Positions 23,324 to 62,285 of a stretch of DNA of 64,000 nucleotides are shown here, one piece after another. The translations under genes were made by a program, and so were the position numbers. Source of the stretch: Cornus controversa (taxonomy: Eukaryota > Streptophyta > Magnoliopsida > Cornales > Cornaceae); the NCBI GenBank assembly GCA_026545225.1, contig CM048845.1, positions 30,879,001 to 30,943,000 of the forward strand, written 5' to 3'. The notes below the pieces were generated by a model. That model saw only the letters and a list, made by a program, of their open reading frames with translations. It had not been told where the DNA came from and did no database searches. Positions within the stretch are counted from its first letter, which is position 1, and each line of letters opens with the position of its first letter.

Positions 23324-23560
23324 CATTACAAGAAATTAAGGTTTTAGAGACAGTCTTTTAAGGACAGGCCAAAAACCGTCACTAAAAGTCCTATTTTTTA
23401 GGGACGGTAACCCTTTATCGTCACTATAGCACACCCTTTAAGGACGGTACAAAAAATCGTCACTAAAAGTCCTATTTTTTAGGAACGGTAACACTTCGCC
23501 GTCACTATTGCACACCCTTTAAGGACGGTACATTAAATACCGTCACTAAATGCTAAGAAG
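23324..23560 (+). repeat. Left terminus and subterminal repeats of the CACTA element
   Basis: The terminal inverted repeat is followed by three or four units of AAGGACGGTAC...CGTCACTAAAAGTCC...TTTTTTAGG(G/A)ACGGTAAC. GACGGT and ACCGTC are complementary, so each unit is a small inverted repeat. In this superfamily such repeats are the binding sites of the TNPA-type protein. Confidence 0.75.
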
Positions 23561-23776
23561 TTTTCGTCACCAAAATTTTCAGCGGGAAATATAGCGCCAT
23601 AGCTTTCCTTATCGCGCCATACTCTTACATTATTCTTAATATGTTCTTCAGTGACTATCGAGAGAACTAGTATCTTCAGAGAGCTTTAGTGATAGGGTTT
23701 TGTTTCATTCTTCAAAGATCTTGAGAGATCTTCAGAGAAAAGCGTAACCCCGTTCGATTTCATCTTTCAAGTCATT

Positions 23777-23820
<44 letters not shown>

Positions 23821-24470
23821 AAACCCTCTTCGTTCTTAGTCAGGTTTCACCTCTTCGATCTCTTCCATCTTCAAAGTTATTTAATTATTTTGATTTTTTT
23901 GGATCTTTCGCTGGTTTTTTTGATGTGATGATGCGAATACGTGTGTTTAGGGTTTGCAAATTGCAACTTAGAGAGAGACTCTGCTTGAAGCCCTGAAAGT
24001 TGTAAACGAAGATAGCCCTAACCCGCAAACCCCAATCTCTCTCTTACATCTACCGTGAAGCCCTAGATTTCTCTCTTTTGTATCCATCGGATCCCTTTCT
24101 ATCTCTATCGAAGCCCCAATCTCTCACTCTCTGTGAAGTTACTTCCCTCTCTCGGTTCAATCTCTCACTCGCAATCCAGTTGCAGAGCTCTTCTGACAAG
24201 CAATGGAGCCCTAATTGAACGAATTTACAAGGTATTAATTTCTTTCTCTCTATATCTCTCTTGCTATATATACATATTTGTTTGTATCTCTCTCTCACAC
24301 ACACACATAAACATAAACGCACACACAAGAACACAATCTCAAAGAGTGAGTTTGCTCAATGATTGTGACAAGTAGAGTATGCTGAGAGTGATTTTTGTCC
24401 TCAATTTATTGTTTTATTTTATTATTATTTTTCTTTAAGTTTATGATTACAAAGAAACTGAGTGTTTTTT
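23561..24470 (+). other. CACTA 5' leader region, CT-rich, no gene
   Basis: A CT-rich stretch with CTCTCTCTT and CAAGTCATTTGATATAT, a (TA)n tract at 23779-23818, and no long frame. By position next to the left terminus it could be promoter and leader of the CACTA transcript; this is inference. Confidence 0.4.
23779..23818. repeat. (TA)n microsatellite
   Basis: About 20 TA units in the CACTA leader region. Confidence 0.95.
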
Positions 24471-24486
24471 CTCACTCACTGGCTGT

Positions 24487-24633
24487 GTTTATCGAAGAAG
24501 CTAGGAACTGTCAGAGGTTATGCGACACAGAGTGGAAAGGGGGTGAATGCCCAAAGCCTCAAGATTGATGGGATTAAAGATATAATTGTTGTCTCTTATG
24601 ATAAAGGTGGCGTGGACAACTCCTCGTGGTAAT
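24487..24633 (+). other. Unrecognised short exon-like ORF, possible captured fragment
   Basis: An open stretch of about 46 codons includes KLGTVRGYATQSGKG and SLKIDGIKDIIVVSYDKGG and ends at a possible donor (CTCGTG/GTAATG). Its base composition is more gene-like than its surroundings. I do not recognise the family. It could be another captured exon of the CACTA element or chance. Confidence 0.3.
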
Positions 24634-26595
24634 GTTGCGCTATTCTTTTTATTATTATTTTTCTTTATCATGATTTGGATATTTGAAATGGGTTTTTTTC
24701 TGGATGATTAGTTATGGCGCAATATAAAAATTTAGTGAGTCTTGATAATGCTAATAGGCTTTTTGGCTTATGGTTTAAGTAATTTTAAGGTATTTTGGTG
24801 TAATGCTTATCTTTTAGTGATGCAATGTCCTCATTTTGAGAAGTTATGAATTGGGTTTTTGGGAAAAGATGAAATTTTTATGTTCGTCAACCCCCTTTCT
24901 CTCACAAGACACACACACACATATATAAATAGGACAAGCAAGTAAATGAAAGGAATAAAAAATTACAAAAGATCACCATTGGTTACTCCATTAATTCAAA
25001 TGTAATATTTATTAATATTGGATCAATAGTCTATCAGAAATCTCTTTTGTGATATGTTATATCTTTAAGCAATTTATTTCTTTCCTTCTCTTGTCAGTTT
25101 GAGGTGTTGATTCAAGTGTTTTTTTGGGAGAAACAGTTGGGAATCATATATTCTGATGTAGCTAAACATGCCACTGATTTAAGCAACTATCAGTTTCATT
25201 TTGGGCATAGATAATAGTCAAAGAGCAAAAAAGCGAAAAAGATTTTGGAAGAAGAGGTAGGAAAGTAACAAATTAATAGTTGTGCTTATTGGTAATAGTA
25301 TATGTATGTATCGTGTTGGAAGCTGTAGAGTTAGCCTACTGGATGACCAAAATTTTTATGTGATGTTAATTACTAAGCTAAAGGTGACCGAGTTGGTAAA
25401 GAAAGAAGGGGTAGAAAGGGAGGAAGGTAGGTTCGACTGATGTGTGGGTGTTTGATGAGGTGGATCGGCTAGTTGGTGCTTGGTGTTTGATGAGTGATTG
25501 GCTTAGGGTTGATGTTGGGCAAGTGAGGTAGGTGAGAGGAGGTTGGTTTCGGCTGAGGTGTGGATGTGGGTTGTGGTGATGACTGGCCGTGAGTGAGGGA
25601 AGTGGCATAGTGTTGAGCCATGGTGAGGTAACTGGTTCGGCTTTGGTAGGTGATAGTTTGCTGCCGAAGTGGGTTTTGGTGGTTAAATAATTCATTTCCT
25701 TCCTATCTGCCCTTACCAAACATATATTTGGAAGAAAAAAAAAATGACAACAAAAGATCATGTACAGTGAAGCAAATGTACAAAGACACTGTGTTTGAAG
25801 AATGCACTTGCACAACAATTAACAAAGATTTAATTAATGCATTAAAGAACATGGGTGATGAGAATAAACTATCTGGTAGATGAAAATTAATGATTGTGAA
25901 TATACTATTTTTTTAGCTTTTATGACTTTCAGAAGATCCTCAAATAGGCATCTCACTTCAAATACAGTGATTTGCAGTGCAGGTAAAACCAATGGGCTCT
26001 ATGGTCAGTTTTTCATTTTTAATTGTATGAAGTGATATTTTCTCTCGACTTTATATTATAATTTTAGGTCTGTCCTGTTCCTAATATTTTAGAGATTTTG
26101 TCGTATTATACAATTCCAAATAGCCCTTACCTTATGCAACTATTGTGAAAATTCTGAAAATTGAGATGATGAATTGGTAAAAAAAAAATATTAGCAAGTA
26201 TGAAAATGCAGGTCCTAGTTTAGCAAACCAATTATTTAGCAAGTATGAAAATGCAGGTCCTAGTTTAGCAAACCAATTATTTAGCAAGTACTATAGCTAC
26301 CTTATCAGCCCCCTATTAGGGTAAGGTTTGAAGCATCCTCAAAATCCTATATGGCTGAAAAACGCACCATACATGCATACATGTCATAGTTTAAACTTCC
26401 AAAAAGATACAACTCAGCGGTGTCAGATTACCAGACATACTTACCATTAAGTAACTAAATTACATACAGCAATTGGTTATTGACTTGGATAATCCTCCCG
26501 TGCTCCCTATCTGCATAACCAACTCTGCACATCCCATGTCAATCTTCTACGGTGTCATGGAGTTTACTGTGGTGGTAGTTCGACATGTAATCATG
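24634..26595 (+). other. No gene recognised (CACTA interior)
   Basis: A/T-rich filler. A 46-bp tandem duplication at about 26192-26286 repeats TTAGCAAGTATGAAAATGCA and its continuation. The frames at 25378-25883 have no recognisable features. Confidence 0.45.
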
Positions 26596-26990
26596 TCACC
26601 ACTTTGCCTGCGACTGCCTAGCCAATGGGTTCCCTCTTCTCTTGAGATTGTTCAATATAGGCAATGCATCATCTACCATTTCCTCTTTCTCCACATTCTC
26701 CACCTCCTCTGCCCTTGATGTCTGTCCCTTCATGCCCAGATGGTTTCCACCTCTGACATCCTCATGCTGCACTTTCTCAGTTTCTGAACAGCCCTGCTTT
26801 CTCTCCTGCCTGATTTTCTCATCCCCTGCTGCCAGTTCAATTCCCTCTTCCAACTCCTTCTCAATGATATCATCTTCATTCATCAGCTCCCTTTTCCAGA
26901 GGTCCCCACAAGACTTTTTCCTTTTCTCAAGTGCCGCCTTCACCTTGTCAATCATTTTAATAGCATCCTGGGGTGACTGGCCAAGTGGAC
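26596..26990 (-). pseudogene. Charged ORF, possibly the C-terminal end of an L1-type LINE ORF1
   Basis: The minus-strand frame is rich in Lys and Glu (KVKAALEKRKKSCGDLWKRE, EKELEEGIELAAGDEKIRQE) and ends NNLKRRGNPLARQSQAKW. A further minus frame follows with GCAELVMQIGSTGG. The order (charged linker, basic NLKRRGNPLAR, Gly-Ser tail) resembles the end of plant L1 ORF1 proteins, but no zinc knuckle is present in this piece. The upstream part of the same frame (26990-27231) is only the antisense of the LFG exon. Another captured host gene is an alternative. Confidence 0.35.
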
Positions 26991-27035
26991 CTTCCCAAAA
27001 CTGCATATTCCAATTTTCTTCAATGGATTGCGTAG

Positions 27036-27207
27036 GGAAGGTCATTTTGGAATCTGTGATCTTAACAACTGTGGTGGTTGTGAGTCTTACTGTGTACACA
27101 TTTTGGGCTGCAAGAAGAGGCCATGATTTTAACTTGGGCCCTTCTTGTTTGGTGCTAATATGGTGCTTATGGTTTATGCCATTATTCAAGTTTATGCCTT
27201 TATTCAG
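27036..27207 (+). pseudogene. LFG/BIL4: Captured exon of a LIFEGUARD/BIL4-type (TMBIM, BI-1-like) gene
   Basis: The frame reads GKVILESVILTTVVVVSLTV then YTFWAARRGHDFN, then after about two missing bases continues in the next frame as LGPFLFGANMVLMVYAIIQ. This is the central membrane segment of plant LIFEGUARD proteins (e.g. BIL4), seven-helix endomembrane/ER proteins of the Bax-inhibitor-1 family that damp cell death. A CGTAG acceptor precedes it, and TATTCAG/GTGG at its end looks like a donor, so one whole exon appears to be present. The frameshift shows it cannot encode the normal segment. It stands alone in the CACTA interior with no other LFG exon nearby, which points to capture. Confidence 0.72.
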
Positions 27208-27773
27208 GTGGCCAGTTGCAATGGCTTTCATGACTTATTAATTCAGCATTATTTTGTTGCATGTTTGTTAAAATAGTTAGTAGTAATAGATCGAATAGTC
27301 AGATCAAATCCCACCTTCATCCAGATCCACCACAACCACAACCCTCCTATGCCTGGGGTTCCTTCTTATGGGTTGTGTTTTGTTGCTTTGCTTGGCTGTT
27401 TTAGGTTTGTGTGGCTTGCTGCTTCTATGCTTTGATGTCTTTGGCTTTAATTGTGAATGTTTTGGTGCCTGGCTGTGGCTGGTTTGCTGCTCTATGGTGA
27501 TTGGTTTTTTTTAGCTGGTTCGGCTTGGTCTTCTTTCACTTTAATTTCTTGCATCTTTGGCCTCTATGTAAAGACTAAAGTGCATGATAAAATACAAATT
27601 ATGTTTGCTGCTTCTTGTTGGTTCATAGCAATTGGAACCCCCAAAAAAGTAAGTGTTGCCAGTCCTGCATGCTAGAATTGTGTTATGATTCAATTTGATT
27701 TGAGTTCCTTCTTGGAATTTTCATGTGTTCTTCAGCTGATCGAATAGGCTATTCACATGTCTAATTGTCTTTT
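27208..27773 (+). other. No gene recognised (CACTA interior)
   Basis: T/G-rich sequence between two captured fragments. The frame at 27457-27675 is compositional. Confidence 0.4.
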
Positions 27774-27777
27774 TCAC

Positions 27778-27956
27778 AGAATCATGGTAACTTGCTTTGC
27801 ATTTCTTCCCCGGTCCTTGTCAACCAGCCGGAATGCAGCGTCTGGGCCATTGATTTCTAGTACAGAGTAGTTGGGGTTCTCCATGGCCACTACCACTGGA
27901 GTTCCCTTTCTAGTATCCTTTGCCCACCACTTAAAAATATCTGTTCTTAGACCCAT
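27778..27956 (-). pseudogene. CSLC: Captured N-terminal exon of a cellulose-synthase-like C (xyloglucan glucan synthase) gene
   Basis: From ATG at 27956 the frame reads [20 protein letters not shown], then [20 protein letters not shown], then [16 protein letters not shown] before a stop. Plant CSLC4/5/12-type proteins, which make the beta-1,4-glucan backbone of xyloglucan in the Golgi, begin [20 protein letters not shown] and continue RGKNAKQVTWVLLLKAHR. The match ends exactly at KQVT, where a Trp would follow, so only about the first 55 of ~690 residues are present; the transmembrane and GT2 domains are absent. Bases 27957-28250 have the look of the native leader (CT-rich, many short T tracts) and may have been captured with it. 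The fragment lies antisense to the transposase genes. Confidence 0.75.
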
Positions 27957-27965
27957 ATTTGACAC

Positions 27966-29733
27966 TCAACTGAACTCAATTCACTCACAAAGGCAACACA
28001 ATAATAGCCAAATATGCTAAACCCAATAAGCAAAAGCTAAGAACTTTAAACCTTAGAATTACCCAGATCTCAAAATGAAGAAAATCACAAACCCATTTGA
28101 GGTCTAACCATTTAAAACAGAACCAGCACTCAAAAACCTCAAATAAAGAAGAGAACTTCCAAATTCATTGTATAAAAATTGAATAACAAACTCACAAATT
28201 CAATTCATGTCTAACTACAAAAGAACAGATCCACACAAATTCAAAAACCCCACTTCAATACTCTCTGCATTCTACATTGATCATTTTTTTTATGCAATTC
28301 AAAAGTCATTTTACTTGATTAAATAATGATAACAATCATTTGTATGCATTTTTTTTTTTAAGATTAAACAGCCATTGGCATTACTAAAACAATGTTCATT
28401 GATGGTTGTTTTAATTTAGGTATTCAATTGAGTATTTGTTTTAATTTAGGAAAAAAGAAAGTGTTATGTCCATAGAGATTTTATTTTATTTTTGATCAGG
28501 TAAGTACTTAACCAATGGAGAATTGGGTTTCTAAAAGTTGCTGTGTCCAAAACTGACTTGTATTAACCAAGGCAGTCTATTAGATTGGGTGGTAAATAGT
28601 GCAAAACTGACTTGTATAACAGTCACTTGTTTATTTTTGGTTGTATACTATTTTACCTACCTATTTTATATGAAAATTATTTGGAAATATAACATGGACA
28701 TGACAAGAAGTCCTGTCCATATTCTTATATGGACTCACATCCAGCAATTCTTCTTCTGATTGCTTTGTGTTTTTGTGCACATGTATATATATACGTGCTA
28801 ATGTGTGTGTAGGACTTCGACTGAGATTACTCTTTAAGGGCCATCACAATCACATGGTGGTCCTTTGTAAACCTTTCATAAAACGAATTGTATTGATAGG
28901 AAGAAAATGAGTTCTAATGTGAAAATCCCATGGGTTGTATAAACACATTTAGCTGAATCCATTAAAATAAATTGTATTCTATCGTGATTATGATAAGTGA
29001 CAATGCACTGAATTTTGGTCTTCTAGACCGTTAAAGAAAAGTTTTATTTCGGAAGGATTTTTACTGTGATAGCTATGTATTGCAGGCCATTTGCAAACAA
29101 CCATTGACTGTATATGGTGATGGAAAACAAACATGAAGCTTCCAATATGTCTCTGACTCGGTATGTCATATTAATTTATGTTATTTTTCCTTACCTGCTA
29201 ATGTTTTAACCAGGGACCATTTCAAATGCCTGTTGGTTATGCATTAATTTGATGTCTACTTCCTTTTCCTTTGGGTTTTTTTTAGTGTAATATAATGTTC
29301 GCATGGTACACTCAACGACTCTACTAACCTAGCAAAATTGTAAACAAAGGATTAAAACCTTTGAATAAATTGAGAAACACACACACACACACACGCATAT
29401 ATATATATATATATATATTTAATGGAGTATTATAATGTGGATTGAAAATGTGTGCGCATGTGCATGAGCTTAAAAATGCTCATCCTAACTATTTCCCATA
29501 TGTAAAAGTACTGATTAACAAATGACTTTTGAAAGTTATAATTTTATATATTTGAACGACATTTAAATATTTAAAGTTACATCTTCTCCAATCCTTTAAG
29601 CTTTTAGATTTGTTAACATTTTGCAATTATTATTTTTAGGTAAGAATAAACATGTAAGGAATAATTAGGCAAGTATAACACAGGTTGAAAGCAATTATTG
29701 TTGTGTGTATGTAAAAAATATAGATAGACTTAC
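27966..29733 (+). other. No gene recognised (CACTA interior)
   Basis: A/T-rich sequence with a (CA)n-(TA)n microsatellite at 29378-29419. A short duplication carries AAAACTGACTTGTAT at 28549 and again at 28602. The first ~280 bases may be the CSLC leader read in reverse. Confidence 0.4.
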
Positions 29734-29900
29734 CAACACAGAGCTTTGTCAATAATAACGGGGTCTAGAATGCAACCCTGTCCACTTCTTATGCCGTCCC
29801 CTTTTGTACCACTTTGGGCAAGAACATTCATAACTGCCCTCTTTGTTATGACAAGTATTTGTGCAGTCATTGAGGTCTGAATTCTGACATTCATCAATAT
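29734..29900 (-). pseudogene. WAK-like: Captured calcium-binding EGF exon of a wall-associated-kinase-like gene
   Basis: After a TTTTCAG acceptor the frame reads DIDECQNSDLNDCTNTCHNK and EGSYECSCPK. After one extra base in an A run it continues in the next frame as GDGIRSGQGCILDP. This is an EGF_CA domain of the kind found in plant wall-associated receptor kinases, which bind pectin at the plasma membrane: the D-I-D-E-C start, six-Cys spacing and GxGC end are all visible. A GTAAGT donor follows at 29733, so the exon keeps both splice sites. The frameshift would disrupt the last third of the domain. It lies directly downstream of the HEXO first exon on the same strand, an arrangement not expected in any native gene. 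Confidence 0.75.
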
Positions 29901-29955
29901 CTGAAAACGATCAAACTGATGATAATTAAGCATATATGGCCATAACAAAAGAACT

Positions 29956-30165
29956 TTATTCATCCTTCAATATTCCAGAAGCATCAACATATTTCCTTCC
30001 ATCGGTCTTGAGCTCAAAGTCCTTGCTTAGATAAAGAGTCCAATTTCCATATCTCACTGATTTTGGCATCGGCCATATGTTAAGGCGCTTAGTATCAACA
30101 ACAGATACTGAAAGGACTTGAAGGAATAGTCCAAGAAGAAATCTTTGGATCACTATCTTCCCCAT
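29956..30165 (-). pseudogene. HEXO: Captured first exon of a beta-hexosaminidase (GH20) gene
   Basis: From an ATG at 30165 the frame reads MGKIVIQRFLLGLFLQVLSV (a good signal peptide), then SVVDTKRLNIWPMPKSVRYG, then LYLSKDFELKTDG and KYVDASGILKDE. NIWPMPKSV and DASGILKD are hallmarks of plant beta-hexosaminidases (HEXO1/HEXO3), vacuolar or apoplastic enzymes that trim N-acetylglucosamine from N-glycans. Only the N-terminal ~68 of ~530 residues are present; the GH20 catalytic barrel is missing. The homology ends at ILKD, and the frame stops two codons on. Just beyond is an intron-like stretch ending in the acceptor of the WAK exon. A read-through transcript could splice or run from HEXO into WAK sequence. 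Confidence 0.8.
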
Positions 30166-30433
30166 TTCAAAATTCTAGCAAGCAAAATCAGAGAAGACTG
30201 AGAAATCAAACTCTATAATATTAAACGGAAAGATTTTGCAAGAGCTGTGAGCATATAAATCAAAGCAGGTGCAGAGGGAGAGGGAGGGGGGGGGGGTTTC
30301 AAAACTCTATTAATAGTACTTATTTATGTATGGTTATTAATGGTGATTTTATATAGAAAAATTAAGGCTGACCCCCCCAAATTTTTTAAAAAATCCTATT
30401 TATGGTTACCTATTTAAAGGTACTCTATTCTAA

Positions 30434-30479
<46 letters not shown>

Positions 30480-31092
30480 TGTTATGAATTAAAGAGAGAA
30501 GAAAAAACATGCTCCATATTTGACAATCTCATTTATGGATTGTCAACTTTTCTTCTCTCCATTTTTTCTTCTCATATAATTTATAGACATGCTCCTAAAA
30601 ATACACATTAAAAATGAATTGAAAGAAAAATTGTTATAATTATTTTATCTTATTTTTAAAATTTTATTTTATATTACTAGTTTTGCCCCCCCCCCCCCCA
30701 CCCCCAAAATAATAATAATAATACCTGAATCAAAGGTCCATAAACTTGAAAGAAAGTCCTTAAAAATTACACCACCATAGAGAAGAAGGTGGGAGATAAA
30801 TGATAAAATTTCCTTTTCTACTATTTACCTCTTGCATTTTAGTGACTAAATTCTAATGGGATGGAAATTCATATAGACTGATTCGTCAGTAATATATTTG
30901 GCTTGCATATACAATTGTAAAAGTATCAAAAATAAAGAAGAAAAGATACATTGAATATGCAAATATGCTGCTAGAAGAATTTAGGGGTTGCCAGTCGGTC
31001 ATGCTGATCAGTAACTAAGTTTCAAGAACAAAAATAACTTGCAGCATTCGATACAGAGTAAGCCCATTCAGGGGAAAGTAAAAAGTGAGTGG
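30166..31092 (+). other. No gene; paired poly-G and poly-C tracts around a TA microsatellite
   Basis: A run of twelve to fourteen Gs near 30284 and a run of Cs near 30685 lie ~400 bp apart, each followed (in mirror orientation) by a CAAAACT-like motif. (TA)n lies between them at 30435-30475. The inverted arrangement could be the ends of a small MITE. The ~150 bases nearest the HEXO start may be captured leader. Confidence 0.4.
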
Positions 31093-34000
31093 TTTTTTTT
31101 TTTTGAAAGTTAAGCTGGTCAAGTTTATTAACCAAAAACGGCAAAGCCATACATCCTACGAGGGGCATACCCTCAAGAAATATCACAAATTTAAATGAAA
31201 CCCCCACACCCACCATAGGAAAGAAAACCACATCAGGAACCATCCTATGTCAATAAGACTAACCCCGGCCCCTACACACAACAGAAACCCACTCCTTTGC
31301 TAGACATATGGAAAACAGCCCAGATTCAAAGGAATCTTCACAACTAGACAGCTTTGCGATCACATAAAACCATAACAAACGTTGGGCTACACCCACATCT
31401 TTAGCCCTTACAAACAACATGTGCAATCATAAGAACCCAGCCACAATCCAATCCACCCCATAAACCATCCATTCTTTGCTAAAACTTGGAAATCTCGCCT
31501 GGGAATTATAATAAAAGTAGATCAAACTATATGAAATCTGATTCCCATTATCATAATCTGTATTAATAATGCACTTCCTCAAACCTGACTGCCATAAGCC
31601 CATACCATCATCAATCATTGTTTGTGTGATTACCCTAGCATCAATTCTGCCATATAGAGTTTGGAAGATTCCACTCCTCTTGGATCCATAAATGCATTCG
31701 ATTTTTATCAAAATTAGAAAGGGAGAAAAGCCGAAATCTTACATTCTGGATAATATCATTGATGATGGTTGCCTCAGTCCTATACTCCTCTGCATAATTC
31801 CTCTTGTTTCTTTCTCTCCAAACCTCATACACTGTAGCAGCAAAGGCTAATCTGTTAATATCAGCAACCAGAGACCTTCCTTTCAGTACCATTGCAGCCC
31901 ACTGTACCATAGCAGTCCACCCCTCTGGCCATTGCATCCAGCATTTGCTTCTTATTGCATTCCATATCCTGCGAGTAAATCCACATTCAAAGAATAAGTG
32001 CTCTCTATCTTCTATAATATGATTGCAAAAAACACAGCAGGTGTCTGAACAAATCCCAATTTCATCATCCTACTCTTAGTCCACAATCGATCCTGAACCA
32101 CCAGCCAAAGTAAGAGGGCATGCTTTGGAATAGCATGCTTGAACCATACTATGTCCCTCCTTTGAAACTTTGCTCTGTTTGTGTCTGAGAAACTCCCAGG
32201 TTGATTTAATTGTAAAGATAACCTTACCAGGCACCCACTGAATCTTATCCTCCTGAGAGGAGTTAGGCTTAAACTCAATAGGAATACTATTTCTCAAGTT
32301 CATCCATTCCATTGTGTTTGTAACAGGCCAGTGCCATTCACTTCCTCTAATAACATCAGCTACTGCAGCATCTGTGCCCAGCCCTGAGTCTCTAATAATT
32401 CTGTTATGATACTTCAATTCTATAGGCCCATCTGGAAGCCAGTTATCATACCAAAGAGAGGTTAACAGCCCATTTCCAACCTTATGATAAACAAGTCTCA
32501 AAGTGCCCCTCATTTTCAGAATTTTCCTCCAAGTCCATGAGCATTCTGTTGGAATCTTGAGAGTCGAGAAATTTCTGTTTGTTATCAAATGAGTTTGGAC
32601 CCAGGCCACCCATAGAGAATCTGAGTTAGGTTGAATGACTTTCCACATATGCTTAGCCATAGCTGCTGCATTCCACACCTCAATATCTTTAATTCCCAGA
32701 CCCCCTTCTAATTTGGGCAGACAAATATCCTTCCAAGCCACTTTATTACCCCCTTCACTCAAACTTTGACCTTTAAACAAGAATCTTCTCATGATGGCAG
32801 AGATTTCTTTCATAATAGATTTTGGCAACACAAAGGTAGAGGCCCAATAGACTTGAACAGAAAACAAAACAGAGCTTATTAGTTGCATCCTTCCAGCATA
32901 AGATAGATACCTACTAGTCCATGATCTAACTCTAGCAGTAATTCTGTCAACTAGGGAACCACAATGCTCCTTCTTTAGCTTAGATGAAAGTAGAGGGACT
33001 CCCAAGTATTTAACTGGACGGCAACCAGCAGAAAAATTCAGTTTAGATATGATTTGAGCATAATAGTCTTGATCTAATCCTGAATGAAACATCACACTCT
33101 TCGAAAAAATCGGCATTAATCCAGACATAGCTCCAAAAGAATGGAGAGCACCCTTTAGAACCCTTATAGAGCTCACAATTCCAGCTGAGAAAAGCATCAG
33201 GTCATCCGCAAAAATCAAGCTAGAGATTTTCTGATTAGAGCACTTCCAATGATAGTCAAATTCTCCCTGTTCAATCTGCTGCTTTAATATACCTGTCAAC
33301 ACCTCCATCCCCATAACAAATAAATAGGGGGACATAGGATCACCTTGTCTTAACCCTCTCCCATTCTCAAAATATCCTTCCAAGCTGCCATTCAAGTTGA
33401 TGGAAAACTTAGCAGTTGTCATACAGGTCATAATCCACTTTCTAACCTGCTCTGGAACTTTGAAGGCTTTTAGTGTAGCTTCCATGAATCTCCATGACAC
33501 AGTATCATAGGCTTTTTTAAGGACCACCTTCATTGCAATCCTTGCTGGCTTATTATTTCTGTGATAATTCCTTAGCAATTCCTGAGCAAGCAGTATGTTG
33601 TCTGTGATACTTCTACCAGGAACAAAAGCCCCTTGATTACTGCTTATAGATGAATCCAGAACAGGTTTTATCCTATTAGCTATGATCTTAGCAATACACT
33701 TATATAACACATTGCACACTGATATAGGTCTGAAATCACCAACAAAAGTGGGATTTTGAACCTTAGGAACTAAAGTGATAATAGTAGAATTCACCTCCTT
33801 CAAAAGCTTCCCTGTTGAAAAGAAGTTTAGAATAGCTTTAGTAACATCAGCCCCTATAATATGCCAGGTTCTCTTGAAAACCCAGAGCTTTATCATCCTT
33901 CAAAGAGAGGAAAGTGTCTTGAACCTCCTCTTTAGTAACTTGCCTTTGCATTCGTAGAGCTTGTTCATCTGTTATAGGCTTTGAAATGTACTGTTGCAAA

Positions 34001-44520: not shown

Positions 44521-44524
44521 AATT

Positions 44525-52059: not shown

Positions 52060-52235
52060 TATTTTGAACTACGTAAATGACTTGATCCCTGTTGAGGGTA
52101 CGTAGACAGCTTGGAGGTTTGTTCTGAGTTCAGTCACCTGAAAAAAAAATTTTTTTTTTGAACTACGTAAATGACTTGATCTCTGTTGAGGGTACGTAGG
52201 CAGCTTGGAGGTTTGTTCTGAGTTCAGTCATCCAA
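52060..52235 (+). repeat. Direct repeat after pol (2 copies of ~80 bp)
   Basis: TTTGAACTACGTAAATGACT and the following GAGGGTACGTAG(A/G)CAGC occur twice, separated and followed by poly(A) runs. The TACGTAGGCAGC phrase after pol is common in Tat-type elements of many plants. Confidence 0.85.
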
Positions 52236-52373
52236 AAAAAAAAAAAAAGAAGAAATAGAAATAGAAAAGGGGATCTTTTATTATTAAAATGGAAGGCATA
52301 ACAATTCTATTGAAAATTTGTTTAATGCATAACATAAAATCATTGAGAACAAGACAATATATAAAGAGAGAAA

Positions 52374-55300
52374 TTAAGACAGCCAAGGTAACTCTAGGAT
52401 CTCTTCTTGCTCTTTCTTCAACAACTTCTCTAAAGTGCTTACAACACCACGGTCATGATCAGGGATGATAATAATCTCTTCGATTGTTTTCTTTTCTTTC
52501 TTGATGCTAGCAATGACATCTTGCCTCTGAGAGATTCGTGAATTAGCCTCCGAAATTGAAGCTTCACGCTTCTTAATTTGAATAAGTAAAAGCTCTAACT
52601 CCTTTGTATCGTTGAGAAGATCTGCTTCATGTTTCTGAACATGTGCCACATCTACAATATCTGAAGAAAGGGCCTCATTAAGGCGTGAGTCAATATGGGC
52701 CAAGCGTTGGGAGTGTACTTCTTCAGTCAAAGCTTGGTCATACCTCGACTTAAGATCATTGTATTCCTCTGCATTCTGTAAATATGAGTTAACCCTCTCC
52801 CGAAACTCAGAACAGTCCATGGAAAGTGAGGAAATCTCATCAAAAGTTTCTTTAACTCTTGATTTAAGTAATGGAGCTTTAGAAAAATCCGTCCTCTTTA
52901 GCATCCTCTTGAGATTGTTTCCCAATGCTAAGGCCGATTGACGTCTGATTCCAGAAATCATATTCGTCACATCATAAGTGGGCGCTTCATAAAATGCGGC
53001 CTGGTGTGATTCCTGAATATTCACTTGGGGTATCACATGCCTCCTATTGTCTCCACACGTGCCTGACCTTGAGACTTGTGTCCAACAGAAGAATCATGAG
53101 GATGAAGATTTACCAACACTTGATCAGAAACTTGAAGGGAAGATGTGACCTCTGCTGCGGAAGGAAGAATATTTTTCTTTCTGGTCACCAACTCAAAGGC
53201 GGAGGGTCCATAAACAGACTCTTCACCACCAAGATGATTTGCATCGTCAATTGCTCCATTACCATCTTCTACCTTTAAAATAAAAAAATAAAATAAAAAG
53301 TGTGTACATGTGCAAAATATATATATATATATATACCTGCAAATCATCAACCTGCATTGGTAAAGAACCACCAGAAAGTCCTTCAAAGAAGTCCTCCGTA
53401 TTTGGAAGGGAAATAACATTCTCTGCTGAAGAGGCACAGTCTGACACTCTTGTCATGTGCTTCCAGTTGCGTTCACCACTAGCTCTTCCACCCCCACTTC
53501 GGATCACCATAGATCGAGGATGCTTCTGGATGTTAGAAGGATGACTGGATGGGTTGAAAGGGGTGGCTGACCCATTAACAAAATTATCGCTGCTCCGAGT
53601 CTTTGAAGATTCTCCAATCATGTGTTCAGTATGCGTTCCTGGTCTTCGGTTTAGAGCCTCATCCTTCCTAGACTTTGCTTCTTTATTTTTTGGAGAGGCT
53701 GGACGTTTATTTCGCGATAAGTTCTCCATTGTAGTCATGAATGGATCAACATGGACCTTTGACCACCAATCAACATAAGCTTTGGTGACTGAAAAATCCT
53801 TTAGACTCATAGTCTCTGGCAATAATACTGAAGACTTGGTGTTATGGAGAGTACATGATTTCCAATATTTGAAAACCTCGTCCAACGACCCAGTGCGAAT
53901 GTCTTGTTTCAAATTTCCTGGAACATCTTGGTGAAAACCAAACTGCCTGCTGAATTTATAGGGGCTGTAGGGTTCAAGGACATAGTAGTCACCTTGTCTT
54001 AAGGATAAAAAACTGGAGCGAAGACTGGCCAAATACTCAAAACAAATAATTGTCATCTCATCATCAACTTTAGCTTCCCTTTGGTGAAACTTCATTGCCA
54101 AGCGATTTAACACAAGACCCTTACAACAAATCTTGCGCCTCAGAATTGTTAAAGTGCTTTGCCATCCCCTCTCCTGCATATTTAGTCATCCGAGGTGAAG
54201 ATTGGTTGATTGGAGACCGAAAATGTGTCTGAAAATATTCTGCTAGCCAGGCATATACATAATGAGCAGGAAGTACAACTGTAGAATTTAGAGATTCGGG
54301 AAGTGAGATGATGTCATTCAAACCCCTATAGATGCTCGCAAGTACTGGAACAGTAAGACAAAATATTTCTCCATATGCCATCTTGCTTGCAATCTTAAAC
54401 ACTCCAGGATGAATTATGTTTGCAGGACTTGAAGGAAGCACAAACTTGCACAACCAACATGCTAAAAATGCAGCCAAATAAGTCTTCTCTTTAACTTCAT
54501 CACTTACACCGAGGTCGACAAACACCTTTTCTTCTAATGGGGTTCGCTTGCGAATAGAACCAATAGAACCAGAAGGATTGTGAAGCTCTCTTGGTCGTTG
54601 GGTTTTGTTCCTTGACTTTCTACTTGGAGGTTTAGGATGCTCCAATGAACCCTTATACCAAAAGTTCACCCAGTCGGAGATCTGTACAACTCCTGCACGA
54701 GTCGGTGATAGGCCAGAAATAAATCTTGACAGCACATCGGAAGAAAAAATTTCCCATCCTTGGTCTTAGTCGACAACTCATTTGCATTAGGGATAACCTC
54801 GTCATAGAATTTTTCGCTAAATGGAAGGCCACCTATCTCATACAAGTCCCAAAGGGAGATGGAAACCTCACCAAGTGAAGTATGAAGAGTATTAGTTCCA
54901 TGGGACCAAGATTCCAAGAATGCCTTTAACACATTTGGGTGTCGATCATAGGAAAAAAGAGAAGCAAAAATGGCATCATATAATCTCGCTGCCTTGAGAG
55001 AAGGACCATTACGACTCAAAATGTCTTCTGATCATTCCCAATACTTCTCGGTGTAAGTCAAATCACACATCATCTTGGGGGAGAAATTCCATCCTACATA
55101 TCCATTGCGAACTTTGTTGCCCAGAAGCAAAAATTTATTAGAATTGTTGACCTGTTCGTGTAAAGGAGACTGCAATAACAACGCTCGTCGAACTGAAGGA
55201 TTCTTCTCGGTTTCAAAAGGACTAAAGGTCGAAAGCTCACATAAAAGTTCCTTGGACCAATGAGACAAGTGCAGTGAAAGTCCAAAATGAGGCACAGACG

Positions 55301-55418
55301 CAGCGAATCGACCAATTAACGGCCTGTGAGCGTCAAGGGTCGTCCCTTTCTCTAGAGCATCACCTTCTTTTTCAACAACGGTTAAAGCGCCTTCTTGGAA
55401 ACATCGGAAGACAACCAT
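52374..55418 (-). pseudogene. Antisense ORF of the Tat element, plant-mobile-domain (PMD, aminotransferase-like) type
   Basis: On the minus strand, a region of about 3 kb between pol and the 3' LTR encodes a long protein-like sequence from MVVFRCFQEGALTVVEKEGD toward the left. The part around 54670-55030 (SLGEVSISLWDLYEIGGLPF preceded by AFLESWSHGTNTLHT) is typical of the plant mobile domain seen in MAIN/MAIL proteins and in some transposons. The far part (52400-53040) is coiled-coil rich (KKREASISEANSRI). Antisense ORFs in this position are known for Retand/Tat elements. The region is broken in a few places, some of which may be introns. Its function in the element is unknown. Confidence 0.75.
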
Positions 55419-55604
55419 GATTGATTTGAATCAAGACTGAAAGAAAAAGAGAATTGTAAGTAAAAAAAAAAAAAGTGTGAAATTAAAGGTTTAATTTTGC
55501 CTCCATGCTTCAAAAAAAAATAAAAAAAAAATAAAAAATACATAATCAAGCTTGCATGAAATATGATTTTAAGATAATGCTGGTGGTTCTGGTCAAACAT
55601 CGTT

Positions 55605-56060
55605 TACAGGACTGGTGCACAAAAGCGCAATTGTGCACGCAGTCAGACTTGTCTCTAAGACTGGTGCACAAGAGCGCAATTGTGCACGCAGCCGGATTCG
55701 CCTCCAATACCGGTGCACAAGAGCGTAATTATGCATGCAGCCGGATTCGCCTCCAATACCGGTGCATAAGAGCGCAATTGTGCACGCAGCTGGATTCGCC
55801 TCCAATTAAGACTGGTACACAAGAGCGCAATTGTGCACGCAGTCGGATTTGCCTTCGTGACTGGTGCACAAGAGCACAATTGTGCACACAGTCGAATCTT
55901 CAAAATGCAGAAGAACAAGCACATTTGCGCAAACTGCAAATCACACCTCCGAAAATGGTGCACAAGAGCGCAATTGTACACACAATCAGAGACTTCAAAA
56001 ATAGTCACGCAAACGCACTTGTGCAAACTGTGGTCACATCTTCTTCGGAATTGTTACCCA
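55605..56060 (+). repeat. Hairpin tandem array before the 3' LTR
   Basis: Seven clear copies of a ~50-bp unit (55612-56000) are followed by degenerate ones. Each unit contains GTGCACAAGAGCGCAATTG then TGCACGCAG; GTGCACA and TGTGCAC form a 7-bp stem around a 10-base loop. Tandem arrays in the hypervariable 3' region are a known property of Tat/Ogre elements and a source of new satellites. Confidence 0.88.
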
Positions 56061-56710
56061 AGTGCACATTTTTGTATGCAAATTTATGTTACAAAGACAT
56101 ACTGCTGGAGAAAATTTTAACAAAAAAAAAAAAAAAATCTATGCGAAGAGGTGTTCATACATTTGAACATACATGCAGATGTACAAACAGTGGGGTAGTG
56201 TTGGGTCATGCATTACTAAGAAGACACAATCAGGGTAATCTATGGGTGAAGTGGTCCCTTCGCTTTGATTTAAGCCCATACAAATAGCCAACTAATGGCC
56301 CAAGGTCAAAATCGTTCCTTCTTAATGATACTTATGAAAGGTGATGCAGTCTTGCCCATTCAAAGTTGGTCAAGATGTATTATATTTACACTTGACTGCC
56401 CATCTACTCATTCATGGATATACAAATCCAACCATTCTGTCCATATCTGTTATATACAAGGATGTTCAATTTTTTTTTTTTGGATTAACAAATGTGTTCT
56501 TGCACGAAAATATGATCATTGAACATACCCAAAAAAATAAAAATAAAAAAATGTATATATTTTAAGTTTTGCCAATCCTGTATGGTGAGCTTTCATATTG
56601 AAATAAAAAAAAAACAAAAAAGAAAAAAAATAAATTCAAATTAAGTCATGTACTTCAAGACTTTTTTTTTTTTCCTAAGTGCATAACAAGCATGCATGTC
56701 ATAAAGTCTT
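56061..56710 (+). other. Non-coding 3' region of the Tat element
   Basis: A-rich tracts and no supported frame between the hairpin array and the polypurine tract. Confidence 0.6.
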
Positions 56711-56725
56711 GAAGTGGGGGCAATT

Positions 56726-57500
56726 TGTAGACACATAAATTTTGTGATAGTCTTATCACCGTCCGATTGATCAACAAGTTAAATACTCTTGGTCAATTAA
56801 ATTCCATGATTGCGGGTCCCATCGACGGACAAGTGTTAAAATCCTGAAGGTGCAGGCCTTCAAACAAATGTGTGACAATTCAAATTTAAATTTGAATTTA
56901 TTTCCATATAAAAGGAGATAAAATCTCTTTATTAATGGAGGTTGGCACAATTAATGGGGAGTTACTAAATTAAACTCTCACCCTTTGGCCTATAAATACA
57001 AGGTCACCCTACACATTCAAGACAGAGACACAAAGAGTTCAAGAGAACACAAAAGCTCTGCCAAAGCTCTGCCTCAACCAACACTCGAAGTTTTGAAGAC
57101 GAAGAACATCAAGCACGTCACACAAGTGTTGTTCTACTTCAAAGACCTTCAACCTTCGAAGTTCTGAAGACGAAGAACATCAAGCACGCCACACAAGTGC
57201 CGTTCTTCTCCGAAGACCTTCAATCCACCGTTCGAGATCAAGCTCTATCGGCCCTCGATCGAAAATCCAGTCAAGCCTTCCTCAATCCTGAAGTTTTGAA
57301 GAAAGCTCATCACTACCGGTTCAAGAACAAGCTTTCGAAGCCCTTGTACCAAACATCAAGGAGATTGAATTAGAGGAAGATTCTTTATTGTAAAAGAATC
57401 GACCACAGAGAATTTTACCTATTTTTCTCAAATTAATAAAATCGATTGTTTGTTACTCAATTTCGTTCCTAGATTTTCGGACACGAAATTTGTGTGTACA
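56726..57500 (+). repeat. 3' LTR of the Tat element, 775 bp
   Basis: It is the same length as the 5' LTR and begins TGTAGACACATAAATTTTG directly after the polypurine tract. It ends ACGAAATTTGTGTGTACA before the ACATC target copy. Confidence 0.92.
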
Positions 57501-59455
57501 ACATCAATTAACATCTAAGCACAGTTCACATTATATAGGACCATAATTTTTTAGACACAACATTCAGGAAAATATTTTCTTAGACACAAACCCGACCTTT
57601 CTTGACAAAATATTTGCCACTTCAAGTTTCAACTAGGATAATGTAGACGACAATATTAAATTATTAGCATTCAAGAAGACAAAACAAAGGTAATATAAGT
57701 TATAATATATTGTACAGGAAAAGAAGGTTACTTCTAGTTTTTCTTATTATTAATTTTGACAAATAGTAGTTGTAGTTATCATTAGTGCATGCTTCCATCT
57801 CCACTGTAATCTATATTATATTTATTTTTTTGCCTATAATAGTAGTTGTATTTTAAAAGTGACAACATTTCTAGAATGGTTAGTCTCTTGTTTTCCTCTT
57901 ATTGTATTTGGAGGGTATGTCGTCTTGTAGATAACTTTTCTTTTTCTTAATACAACTATAAATTGTCAAAAAGAAGAGAAAGAATATAGTAAAAATAATA
58001 AAATTATTATTACAATAAGAAAATAAATCTATTTATCTTTATTTGGCTCCTCTCTACTAATGGAATCGATATTGTCCTACTAACATATCCATAATATAGT
58101 CAATCAAATTAACAATGGACAACAAAAAACTGGAGCAAGTAATACAATATGAACAGGATAGACTTTACCAGGAAAAAAAAAACTAAACAGAATGGAACAT
58201 TGGGTTAAAAACATTTATACACACATATATTGTCAGCCACTTCTTATGTCAGGCTTGTATGAAACAGGCACCTTGATGACTAATATGAAAGTAATCAAGT
58301 ACATTTTTGGTGTCTATCAAAGCTGTTGGCTGGTTAGTTAAAGACCTTTGTGGTGTAATTTTACATTGCTCAAAATTTGAAGACCACTCCTAGCAAATTG
58401 GAATGGAAAGTGAAGAAGAGAAATACTTAACACAAAGGAGGGGATTTTTTTTTCTATATATTTTTTTAATAAGGTATTCAAGCAGAGTACAAATTGGCTG
58501 GCATATTAACTGTTGGCACTATCTTTTAATGACAGTAAAATAAACTCTTAGTGACAGCTAAATAAAACTGCTACAATAAGATATTTTTTGACACCTTTTT
58601 TCCCCTGTTGTGGCAATTCAAAGAAATGGCTGGTGTACATACTTTATTTTCAGATTGGGGTATGCGCAGGTCTCTTTTTTTTTTCGAAGGCAAGAAGATA
58701 TTTTGATAAAAACTAAAGTCTAGCAAATACATGACAATCATGTTTGTTGCTCTCTTTTAGCCTGGTAATAGTTCCTTTTACATTTTTTTATTATAATTTT
58801 TGTTTATATAATTTCAAATTGTATCAGAAAATTTCCATTGAGTTCTGTATGTTGTGGATGAATTCTTTATTTATACAAAGTTAAGATGGATTTTTGTATG
58901 GAGTGTATATGGACCATTGCAGATTGAGATTGAAGTGTCTAAATTTTTGTTGTTTGGTTGCAAGGCTGGTGAGTGATATTGGTTGTGTAGGCTTTGGGTG
59001 TAGTTTGGTTGGAAATAATGTATAAGCAGAACTTGTGGATTACAACAGATTATTTTTTAATTTATATATTGAATGTCTAACCGAATTTGAATTGCGGCTA
59101 ATTAGTTGACCTTTTTGGTGTGGGCTCTTTAATTTAAATTATATAATATAGTTGATTGTTAAAAAAATGTGTTATGGGAACTCTTTCCTAAGCCCTTGGT
59201 GATTTCCTTCACATGTCTTTTTTACAATATAGGAGGTTCTAATAAGCATATATTATATTACTTTCTTTTTTCTATTTTGAATCATTAGGATGTCTTTACT
59301 CTCTTTATTCCATGTTTTGAAGCTTTATATTGATGGAGGTGTCTAAAATTGAATTTTGTTTCACTTGTATTGGTTCTTTGATTAATTGTTCATAATCATA
59401 ATTTAGCTTATTCCAATAATTTTGTATTTGTAGTTGTTTGATTGTATCTCTCTTC
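57501..59455 (+). other. CACTA interior upstream of the TNPA-type gene, no gene
   Basis: About 2 kb of A/T-rich sequence. Around 58520-58560, TTAATGACAGTAAAATAAAC and TTAGTGACAGCTAAATAAA resemble the element's subterminal motif. Nothing else is recognised; introns or a promoter of the downstream gene are possible. Confidence 0.4.
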
Positions 59456-61450
59456 ATGGACATCTCTGAGCCTCCAATGCATAGAGTACTAAGGTCTCGC
59501 ACGGCTCGACCTGACCCACCATTTACAAGTGCACATGATGGCCAACCTAGTGGAGAAGGTGATGGTAGTAATTCACTTAATACACGAGCAAGTATCGAAA
59601 GTTCAGGTAGTGTTTCACAGATGAACCCACAATCGAGTGGAGGAGGACAACCAAGTGGAGAAGGTGATAATTATGTTGCACCATTAATTCATCATATATA
59701 AGCTCTTTTATAATTGCTGTATTTTAATAATGATGATAAATTTATTTTTTAGGCTCATTTCGGAAAGGGTGTGGAAAAGCAAAGAATGAAGCCTTAGTGA
59801 AAGCTAAGAAACTTTACGGAAAAGGCAATCCAGTTCCGGTAGAGTTCTCGCCAGATTCTTATAAACCTGTTGACTTAAACAATCATATTTGGACAGCTGA
59901 GATTGGTATCAGTACTCGACAAAGAAATACACTTCTTCTACATAAATCATGGAAGGATGTTCGCGAATATGAAAAACAAGACCTCTATGACCATGTAAAG
60001 GTATTGAATTATTATTTTTTTATATTATATTAGTGTATGAAATATGTTTTGTTCTTTTTTATATCATATTAGTGTATATAAGTGGTTCATTTTTTAGTAT
60101 GCCACTGAGATTTTGCCTGACCATTACTTTGTTTTAACTTGTATTGAATATTCATATAAAGAAAACATTTGGAGTGGATGCATATGCCAATGAAAACGAT
60201 TTTAAGCGAGTGGACAGGAGACTATCTGAGAGTTTGAGGAAATATAGATGTAGTTTGAAGAAACATTTTGATGAGCATCTTTCGGTTGAGAATGCACGCC
60301 GACATCCCAAAGATGACATTGATATTGATATTTGGCAAGTCTTGTGTGATAGGTGGATCTAAGAGGAATTTCAGGTTCTCAACTATGTGCTTTTGATTAT
60401 TTACCATTTGACAATTTACTTAAATCATTTAAATATTAATTTTACTTGCTAATTGAGTTTATTCACTTATTTTTGTATTATTGTTTGAATTACTACATAG
60501 GAAATAAGTGCAAAAAACAAAGAAAATCGATCAAAGAATACAATTCCACATGTTTCTGGATCGATGTCCTTCATTAGACGCTTTCATGGTTACGTACGTA
60601 AAATGTTTAATAATAATTATAGATTTTTAATTTACTATCCATTCAAATCATATATCGTTCGATGTTAACTATTAGTTTATACTACAGCTTAAAACAAAGG
60701 AAAATCAAGCAAATGAGGAAGTCGAGGAAACTGGAATTCATCAGCCTGGTCCTGCAATCAGCACCTACAAGGACACACACTTTAAAGAAAATTCTGGCTG
60801 GGTAAACGAGAAAGCTAAAAGGAATTATGTAAGTTAATTATGACACTGTTTTAATCATTAATGTTACTAATTCTTGTTTTATTTATTGTTCTTTCATTTA
60901 TTTTATATATTTTTAATTTTATCTAGACTTAAAATATGTTATTTTAATGCAGGATGATATGATAGAAAAGTCGTTACAAGTTTCTCTTGAATCTGATGGT
61001 ACCAGCAGTCCAAATGATGTCGAGATACTGCTGGAGCAACTAGGAGGTGTTAGGAAGGGATATCCTCATGGCCTTGGGAATGGGTACATTGTTTCGAGTC
61101 GTCAACGTGTATCCTCATCTTTTGAAGAGTCCTCTAGAAGGAGGGCAGAAATAGCAGAGGAAAAAAATGAAAAAATGGCAGAGGAATTAGCAAACGTGCG
61201 AGAACAGTTGCAAAAAATTACCAAAGTGCAGGAGATGATGCTTGCGCAACAACAACAACCTCCACCATGGTTCCACCATTATCAGCAAACATCAGATTCC
61301 GAACGGCAGCATGCACCACCTGCACCACCAAGCTATCCCCAGCCACCACCATGGTTCCAGTTTTCTCAACAGCCCCAATCAACACCAACACCAACACCAT
61401 CAGAGTCAGCCCCAACACCAACACCCCATTCAGCACCAACACCACCTTAA
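59456..61450 (+). pseudogene. TNPA-like: TNPA-like (Transposase_24, Ptta/En-Spm) gene of the CACTA element, 6 exons
   Basis: Splice sites give exons 59456-59663, 59753-60000, 60162-60374, 60501-60593, 60688-60828 and 60953-61450. The product opens MDISEPPMHRVLRSRTARPD, has a Ser/Gly-rich linker, then VDLNNHIWTAEIGISTRQRN and LHKSWKDVREYEKQDLYDHV, DIWQVLCDRW, EFQ/EISAKNKENRSKNTIPH, and YKDTHFKENSGWVNEKAKRN. These are the Transposase_24 order of blocks. A coiled coil (AEEKNEKMAEELANVREQLQ) follows, then a Gln/Pro-rich tail. In En/Spm the TNPA-type protein binds subterminal repeats and brings the ends together. One in-frame stop (TAA 60360-60362, in DRWI*EEFQ, where Ser fits) interrupts exon 3; otherwise the gene looks whole. 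The far right position next to the terminus is usual for this gene. Confidence 0.82.
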
Positions 61451-61755
61451 ATCTGGATTTGCTTTTGTAGGTTCTATCTTAGATCTATATTGTTCAATGC
61501 ATGCTTGTTTTATTTCAAGACAAATTTGTTTGATTTATGTTTTATTTTGTTATCTTGGATGTTGAACTAGCTTGTATTAACTTATTGGTTTTTTTTTATA
61601 AAAGTCCTAATTAGGTATTGTTATGTAATTTATGCAATATTTATTTAATATTGTCATATATATAATATTTATTTAAGAAATGTAAATTAACATATTAAGC
61701 AAATTACAAAAATAAAAATTAAGCAAAATATCAAACAAATACCTAATTGTCCCTA
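61451..61755 (+). other. 3' flank of the TNPA-like gene
   Basis: T-rich sequence expected to hold the 3' untranslated region. No further gene. Confidence 0.5.
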
Positions 61756-62285
61756 ATACGTATGCATATTAGTGACAGTCAAAAACTGTCACTAATAGTC
61801 CAGTTATTAGTGACGGTCAAATTCGTCGCTAAAACACCAGTAAATTAGTGACAGTTTCATACCGTCACTAATAAACCAGTTATTAGTGACAGTGAAATCC
61901 GTCGCTAATACGTCTGCGAATTAGTGACAGTTCTTGACCGTCACTAATAGTCCAGTTATTAGCGACGGTCATAACCGTCCCTAATAGTCCAGTTATTAGT
62001 GACGGTCAAAACCGTCCCTAATAGTCCCCGTTATTAGTGATGGTCAAAACCGTCGCTAATAGTACCCGTTATTAGTGACGGTCAAAACCGTCCCTAATAG
62101 TCCCCGTTATTAGTGACGGTCAAAACCGTCGCTAATAGTCCAATTATTAGTGATGGTCAAACTTGACCGTCACTAATGCCCTTTTGCGACACCAATTTTA
62201 GTGACGGTCCGATTTGAGCATTAGCGACGGTTTTTTGACTTTGTGACGGATTTGACCGTCACTAAAACCCTGATTTCTTGTAGTG
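61756..62285 (+). repeat. Right subterminal repeat block and terminus of the CACTA element
   Basis: More than ten units of TTAGTGACGGTCAAAACCGTC(G/C)CTAATAGTCC-type sequence, about 35 bp apart, end in CCTGATTTCTTGTAGTG. GACGGT and ACCGTC are perfectly complementary, so every unit is a palindrome. This end has many more copies, and more regular ones, than the left end, an asymmetry known from En/Spm. Confidence 0.88.

Follow-up and report, generated by a model that had tools for sequence, protein, structure and literature searches.

A probable mosaic CACTA locus with ends of two families and seven host gene pieces in Cornus controversa

The locus described here, at positions 23324 to 62285 of a 64,000 bp window from Cornus controversa, raises the question of whether two inverted CACTA-type termini, with transposase genes and host gene pieces between them, delimit one transposon or a patchwork. 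The window (the whole stretch of DNA that was analysed) is C1:30879001-30943000, C1 being contig CM048845.1 of the 771.7 Mb, 61-contig assembly GCA_026545225.1, and the copies elsewhere, given by contig and position, all come from that assembly; coordinates without a contig are those of the window. The initial annotation had taken the locus for one element of about 39 kb, a Pack-CACTA that carried exons of at least six unrelated host genes and could have been autonomous. A single 39 kb element from 23324 to 62285 was not supported by our analysis; the region is probably a CACTA mosaic with hybrid ends, which arose as pieces were captured and ends swapped repeatedly. Its ends and transposase genes are the following:

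23324-23353, plus strand: left terminal inverted repeat of A type, with CACTA changed to CATTA
34797-38515, plus strand: TNP2 (tnp2/TnpD) transposase gene of several exons, end approximate
59455-61450, plus strand: TNPA-type gene of the B family, assigned by place and copies
61749-62285, strand not assigned: B-type right terminus with its palindromic subterminal repeats

The left end begins with CATTACAAGAAATTAAGG at 23324 and the right end closes with CCCTGATTTCTTGTAGTG at 62285, in inverted orientation. A CACTA start is found at the right end (CACTACAAGAAATC), and the left end (CATTACAAGAAATT) is one base off; the left terminus reads CATTACAAGAAATTAAGGTTTTAG at 23324, the right terminus at 62285 is its near inverse, and in an alignment counted by hand the outer 30 bases of both termini were alike at 25 positions. 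Subterminal repeats, with a period of 81 bp in the left array and of 38/113 bp in the right array, were found as the initial annotation had described them. Its matching inverted termini hold for the inversion and for these 25 of 30 bases, but the termini belong to two different families, here called A and B, and the triplets adjoining them, AAT on the left and TAA on the right, differ at two of three bases, so that the window shows no 3 bp target-site duplication (TSD). Both ends were read in six other elements; the TSD is perfect in five of them, and in the sixth the triplets agree at two of three bases.

The left end of the window is of A type, being 95-97% identical to the A elements at C2:74.37M, C1:35.71M and C10:9.40M, and this terminus reads CACTACAAGAAATTAAGG in the four A-type elements that were retrieved. 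Right ends were read for two A elements, C2:74.37M (10,093 bp, TSD GTT/GTT) and C10:9.40M (15,992 bp, triplets TAG/TGG, two of three bases alike), and are only 70-71% identical to that of the window over 176-178 bp. The window's right end is instead of B type, with 94-96% identity to the elements L033, L034 and L035 (5.9, 5.4 and 8.3 kb, with TSDs CAT, ATG and CAT, respectively) and to the element at C2:68.71M, whose outermost left ends match the window at 75%, 68%, 73% and 78%, respectively. The left-end searches scored 40 of 65 and 40 of 55 candidates. None of the seven independent A-type left ends (from base 1, at least 87% identity) had a listed B right end downstream, with 40 of 178 right-end candidates scored; two of these seven loci were read to an A right end, C10:33.90M, C2:59.49M and C3:68.74M were not read through, and at C1:35.7M and C1:66.2M, read 20 and 40 kb inwards, an A right end was not found. 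The two ends of 23324-62285 are not of one family and, among the ends listed, are not joined in an independent copy. The initial annotation had itself said that its proposal would fall if the termini were of different families and no further copy in the genome joined them; among the ends listed this is the outcome, apart from two local duplicates.

The longer pairs of an A left end and a B right end that were listed comprise the window, C1:30742003-30781860 (39.9 kb) and C1:31225716-31261162 (35.4 kb). Both flanks are common to the window and the two local pairs, at 99.4% identity on the left and 99.6% on the right; we read the local pairs as duplicates rather than transpositions. At C1:30819338 the right flank is found once more, next to a fourth right end for which no left end was listed. 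At C1:30742003, 30819338, 30902324 and 31225716 the locus is seen three times with both flanks, together with the extra right end, within about 0.5 Mb; the left ends of the local copies are spaced by 160,321 and 323,392 bp, and a segmental duplication of roughly 160 kb is suggested. The flanks also hold a repeat like a miniature inverted-repeat transposable element (MITE), in inverted orientation near both ends (23090-23267 and 62608-62790); the copy in the left flank is truncated, and the right flank apparently holds a longer, inverted copy. A CACTA element inside a palindromic MITE, with the inverted flanks as its arms, was considered and not supported, and for the repeat copy at C1:35.7M a long inverted second arm was not found among the best self-matches listed.

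Between the ends, seven host gene pieces were recognized, as shown below:

27018-27197, plus strand: LFG/BIL4-like exon (PF01027, E 4.1e-4, below cut-off; name in part assumed)
27787-28276, minus strand: CSLC-like exon piece with adjoining sequence (name assumed)
about 29081-29163, plus strand: exon of a UDP-glucuronate decarboxylase (UXS) gene, interrupted by one in-frame stop (PDB 2b69_A, E 3.1e-5)
29682-29960, minus strand: wall-associated-kinase (WAK) EGF exon piece (EGF_CA, E 3.7e-10)
29958-30741, minus strand: upstream region plus the beginning of exon 1 of a HEXO-like (beta-hexosaminidase) gene (Pfam match weak; name in part assumed)
38717-39326, plus strand: CLU/FMT-like intron-exon-intron piece, exon at about 38827-38988
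42754-43073, plus strand: RPC9-like exon piece, exon at about 42898-43015 (name assumed)

All seven pieces have a donor-like locus elsewhere in the genome, with identities of 84-99%. The LFG piece matches C6:63543969-63544152 at 93%, the CSLC piece C1:97097983-97098472 at 99%, the UXS piece C10:45.425M at 84% and C3:29.922M at 80%, and the WAK piece a cluster at C10:34.45-34.48M at 87-88%. The HEXO piece, which abuts the WAK piece, matches C6:44.620M at 98% over 29958-30293 and at 88% over the whole of 29958-30741, while the RPC9 piece matches C1:18.396M at 95-96.5% (95% over 42756-43088) and the CLU piece a gene at C9:56.374M at 86%. The donor-like loci of four of the seven pieces (CLU, HEXO, WAK and RPC9) were read: the CLU gene has more exons on either side, the HEXO exon reads on beyond the captured edge, the WAK locus has another exon with a GUB_WAK_bind match (E 8.5e-11), and in the 2 kb read at C1:18.396M the RPC9 piece alone matches the window. 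The loci of LFG, CSLC and UXS, judged by the extent of the match, would likewise be genes and donors. Since the identities to the donor-like loci vary, the captured pieces may differ in age. We rejected the view that the pieces are parts of native genes at this place, because each has the size of one exon and a donor-like counterpart at another locus.

The names of the pieces are backed to different degrees. The WAK and UXS names are supported by Pfam or PDB, and the LFG, CLU (E 0.0064) and HEXO pieces have Pfam matches only below the curated cut-offs; a relevant Pfam match was not found for the CSLC piece, and PDB searches returned no match for the RPC9 piece and nothing useful for the HEXO piece. 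The pieces called CSLC and RPC9 are ones that we take to be such, and the names HEXO, CLU and LFG are in part our assumption as well. The six gene pieces of the initial annotation are therefore all matched by donor-like loci, though the names of two of them, CSLC and RPC9, lack a relevant match, and the UXS piece is a seventh that was absent from its list. For a reading of 44 aa near 24500-24620, no match was convincing.

The same pieces recur elsewhere in the genome in recognizable combinations. The element at C2:68.71M is a complete, independent element of 16,784 bp with the TSD TTT/TTT, which holds TNP2, the CLU and RPC9 pieces, TNPA and the right end of the window; it matches the window at 34262-40072 (97.9%), 40071-41740 (98.9%), 42446-42760 (98.4%), 42754-43073 (98.8%) and 59275-62286 (95.5%). 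The B core is thus mobile with its CLU and RPC9 cargo, and genic pieces lie between CACTA ends not only in the window, with its seven, but also in this complete element. The 3′ part of TNP2 is joined to the CLU piece, at 91-98% identity, at the following eight loci outside the local duplicates:

TNP2-CLU loci: C2:68.71M, C10:14.22M, C6:22.80M, C8:30.97M, C2:88.37M, C7:3.81M, C7:11.04M, C8:25.78M

Of these, C2:68.71M alone was read to both ends. All eight came from the CLU query, for which 12 of the 23 matches listed were read, including the three local copies and C9:56.374M, and two A elements have TNP2 without CLU. The RPC9 piece recurs at 97-99% identity at C8:25.78M, C2:68.71M, C7:11.04M and C6:22.80M. 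These observations support the view that gene-fragment cargo travels on transposase-bearing CACTA elements. The WAK-HEXO pair was found again at 97-98% identity on the same strand as CLU, 26 kb upstream of it at C6:22.77M and 5 kb upstream at C10:14.22M. Copies of the UXS piece, at 94-99% identity, stand at five loci in addition to the local ones. A UXS-WAK-HEXO module is found upstream of TNP2-CLU, on the same strand, at two other loci, where it may share one element with TNP2-CLU. At C7:11.04M and C8:25.78M, a scrap of 56 bp (95-96%) corresponding to 30204-30259, within the HEXO-matching stretch, sits just before the target site of the long interspersed nuclear element (LINE) described below, upstream of TNP2. 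As the scrap is kept at both loci, HEXO was apparently captured before the two diverged.

Further upstream, the window contains two more blocks with copies elsewhere:

26420-27011: block of nature not assigned, 92-93% identical in C5:66.666M, C6:14.310M and C6:14.061M
27015-29080, strand not assigned: LFG-CSLC block, present in six other loci, the match stopping at 29080 in all six

In two of the six loci, which were read, the LFG-CSLC block is 97-98% identical over 27015 to about 28800, and no CACTA end was seen in the roughly 4 kb read at these two; none of the six loci was in the lists of left or right ends. We read a further LFG exon, absent from the window, as probably lying upstream in these loci. 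At C4:22694276-22695841 (minus strand), a CACTA-type left end (72%) is followed, about 1.2 kb further in, by an LFG piece (92%), so that LFG may ride another CACTA subfamily too.

The transposase genes reported by the initial annotation were confirmed, although the integrity of TNP2 was not. TNP2 of the window has Pfam matches to the tnp2 domain (PF02992, E 4e-97) and to PF13963 (E 3.6e-19), and is 97-98% identical to those of C2:68.71M, C7:11.04M and C8:25.78M, compared with 84-86% to those of two A elements. It carries an in-frame stop at 36408-36410, so the full transposase pair that had been thought to make the element possibly autonomous is not intact; TNP2 of C2:68.71M has an in-frame stop too, at a different position. 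The TNPA-type region is 95.5% identical to the complete copy at C2:68.71M over 59275-62286, whereas identity to the A element C10:9.40M is 67-69% over two long pieces and 73-80% in shorter ones. Two TNPA-type stretches searched against Pfam gave no significant match, and the TNPA label therefore rests on position and copies.

Parts of both families are also found interleaved within the locus, in two segments:

23324-26421, plus strand: 5′ segment with the A-type left end, common to C1:66.213M
43481-57687: A-family segment with a long terminal repeat (LTR) element inside; 43481-43745 and 57502-57687 are 97-99% identical to three A elements

The 5′ segment matches C1:66.213M at 92% over 290 bp and then at 96% over about 2810 bp, and its first part, 23324-24332, is common to three further A elements at 95-97%. 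Yet 23929-24728 is also present in three B elements at 93-95%, and within it 24332-24728 is found in three B elements and is missing from the A element C10:9.40M; 24967-25294 also occurs in L035. The A-type segment 43481-57687 lies between TNP2 and TNPA here and 5′ of TNP2 in A elements. Because B-like sequence stands in the A-ended 5′ segment and an A-type segment stands between TNP2 and TNPA, the mixing is deeper than one junction.

Two retroelements are nested in the locus, in line with the initial annotation:

31092-34261, minus strand: nested LINE (RVT_1, E 5.1e-37), flanked by AAAAAGTGAGTG at 31080-31091 and AAAAAGTTGAGTG at 34262-34274
43743-57501, plus strand: nested LTR retroelement (gag, RT and integrase matches), with LTRs at 43743-44521 and 56723-57501

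The target stretch of the LINE is present once in C7:11.04M, C8:25.78M and C2:68.71M. The LTRs of the second element are 97.05% identical over 779 bp, and sequence uninterrupted by it was found in three of the four A-type elements fetched, the fourth, C1:66.213M, having no match to the interrupted part. Open reading frames antisense to the gag-pol of this LTR element were observed at 52374-55430 (minus strand), and a plant mobile domain (PMD, PF10536, E 3e-10) is matched by the one at 54121-54765, which lies between the integrase and the 3′ LTR; a 49 bp unit forms a tandem array at 55610-55891, also within the element. Outside the locus, another LTR-type element occupies 1-9094, where 1-937 and 7693-8628 are 99.25% identical and each contains a 51 bp tandem repeat, and 19 degenerate 50 bp copies around GACGCAGTTTTGTCTATTG are arrayed at 2651-3971.

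We infer the mechanism of joining and the order of events as follows. The core would be a transposase-bearing lineage of family B, comprising TNP2, the CLU piece, the RPC9 piece, TNPA and the right end, which would move as an ordinary cut-and-paste CACTA by means of TNP2-type and TNPA-type proteins, and which would have gained host gene pieces stepwise and spread with them. These pieces, introns included, would have been taken up as genomic DNA. Left of TNP2 lie the UXS-WAK-HEXO module, the LFG-CSLC module and a 5′ segment whose left terminus is of the A family. These parts would have been joined when related elements close to each other underwent aberrant excision or repair; template switching during gap repair is an alternative route of joining that would also fit. 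The locus would later have gained the LINE and the LTR retroelement, and would then have been copied locally with its flanks.

Several observations weigh against this account. The left ends of A and B differ mainly in the outer ~110 bp and are 85-95% alike deeper in, and B right ends transpose with varied left ends, because the element at C2:68.71M combines a third left-end type with a B right end and a perfect TSD. The A elements at C10:9.40M and C1:35.7M, two of the seven A-left loci, hold an internal copy of 84 bp of the B right terminus, which ends about 4.4 kb inside the element, just upstream of TNP2. These scraps are followed by AAA, unlike the left triplets TAG (C10:9.40M) and TGA (C1:35.7M). 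They speak for the account in that ends cross between families A and B, and against it in that they are missing from the right-end list, for which only 40 of 178 candidates were scored while three A-left loci stayed unread. In addition, C1:66.213M joins an A-type left end to the window's 3.1 kb leader, partly B-like, at another site, and a terminus matching the searched pattern was not found in its next 40 kb. This locus is the strongest sign that the hybrid 5′ end has itself been copied to another place, one or more times; the hybrid as a whole might therefore be truly mobile and have lost its TSD by decay. One genuine 39 kb CACTA of autonomous type, inserted once, with the end-swapping earlier and with the terminal base and the TSD decayed later, would explain that locus, the likeness of the window's termini and the completeness of a B element with a different left-end type. 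We nevertheless consider such a single insertion unlikely, as AAT and TAA share one base in a genome where five of six other elements have a perfect TSD, none of the seven independent A-type left ends leads to a listed B right end, and the left and right flanking repeats form no single interrupted copy.

The lacking TSD and the truncated left MITE-like flank would also follow if two truncated neighbouring CACTA elements had been brought together by deletion, with no hybrid ever formed: an A remnant from 23324 to about 26421, where the homology of C1:66.213M ends, and a B remnant from about 27015 or from 28287, where that of C10:14.22M begins in the stretch read, to 62285. This is improbable in our view, given that the B-shared 24332-24728 (and 24967-25294 in one element) already lies in the A-ended segment and in C1:66.213M, and that the A-type segment sits between TNP2 and TNPA. 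An assembly artefact joining unrelated pieces might be feared in a highly repetitive region with three near-identical local copies, but the left joint is present in three of three copies and the right joint in four of four right-end copies, six cargo-region queries match all three local copies at 100%, and internal joints recur at independent loci, which leaves it a very slight chance. The mosaic, hybrid-ended reading is the one that we prefer. A wider reading, in which the CACTA lineage is a modular exon-shuffling platform that exchanges cargo and ends, the modules CLU, RPC9, UXS-WAK-HEXO and LFG-CSLC being kept, lost or exchanged and CLU being kept as useful to the element (for example through transcripts or as cover from silencing), seems doubtful to us.

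The acquisition of unrelated gene pieces by CACTA elements has been proposed and is seldom seen in several stages. Here one genome lines up an element with CLU and RPC9, the UXS-WAK-HEXO pieces upstream of TNP2-CLU, and the 56 bp HEXO scraps; as identity to the donor-like loci ranges from 84 to 99%, it might be possible to order captures by age. The search for parent genes and further copies proposed in the initial annotation did find donor-like loci and cargo-bearing copies, while among the ends listed the whole unit was found again only in the local duplicates.

Multi-gene cargo in CACTA elements and gene fragments on transposase-bearing ones are both already in print, and the cargo seen here, which had been called exceptional, is described too strongly by that word (PMC1947982, PMC8903248, PMC2528002, PMC8978399); the comparisons below follow the accessible sections of the papers cited. 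Tgm-Express1 of soybean is a CACTA of 5.7 kb in which five unrelated host genes are represented by exon and intron fragments (PMC1947982), and resembles the present locus in having CACTA ends around several host gene pieces; the word transposase is absent from the accessible main text on it, whereas TNP2 and TNPA-type genes accompany the cargo here. Maize Pack-CACTAs often contain several loci (PMC8903248) and are thus similar in holding genic pieces from several places, but Pack-TYPE elements are defined as non-autonomous, with no transposase between their ends (PMC8903248). Because of this definition the Pack-CACTA label does not fit a B lineage that carries transposase genes, TNP2 and the TNPA-type region being present here, and with the differing end families and the lacking TSD it led us to reject one autonomous Pack-CACTA of 39 kb.

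In the open-licence literature, searched by titles and the starts of abstracts, a transposase-bearing CACTA lineage with this many pieces was not found. Transposase-bearing CACTAs with gene fragments are described as Cactavine families in grapevine (PMC2528002), five of which additionally have ULP domains, and in Chenopodium (PMC8978399). The Chenopodium fragments lie 5′ of the transposase, like LFG to HEXO here (PMC8978399), and the PPR piece of Cactavine-5 lies downstream of it, like CLU and RPC9 (PMC2528002); these elements hold one or two fragments each, as against about seven here (PMC2528002, PMC8978399). Tgmt* of soybean, a putative autonomous CACTA of 20.5 kb, is similar as a large element with a tnp2-type gene and subterminal repeats, and has a 3 bp duplication; a set of captured host genes is not described for it in the accessible sections (PMC2613891). 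Cut-and-paste movement by TNP2-type and TNPA-type proteins is known from En/Spm (PMC2613891). For the joining of pieces, the Arabidopsis Pack-CACTA model (Catoni et al. 2019, via PMC13317346) starts from close related elements that undergo aberrant excision with complementary terminal deletions, and the resulting hybrid element encloses the intervening DNA (PMC13317346). The model would predict hybrid ends and enclosed DNA, which fits what is seen here, and it can be put directly to the test in this genome, where cores of one kind carry ends from different families.

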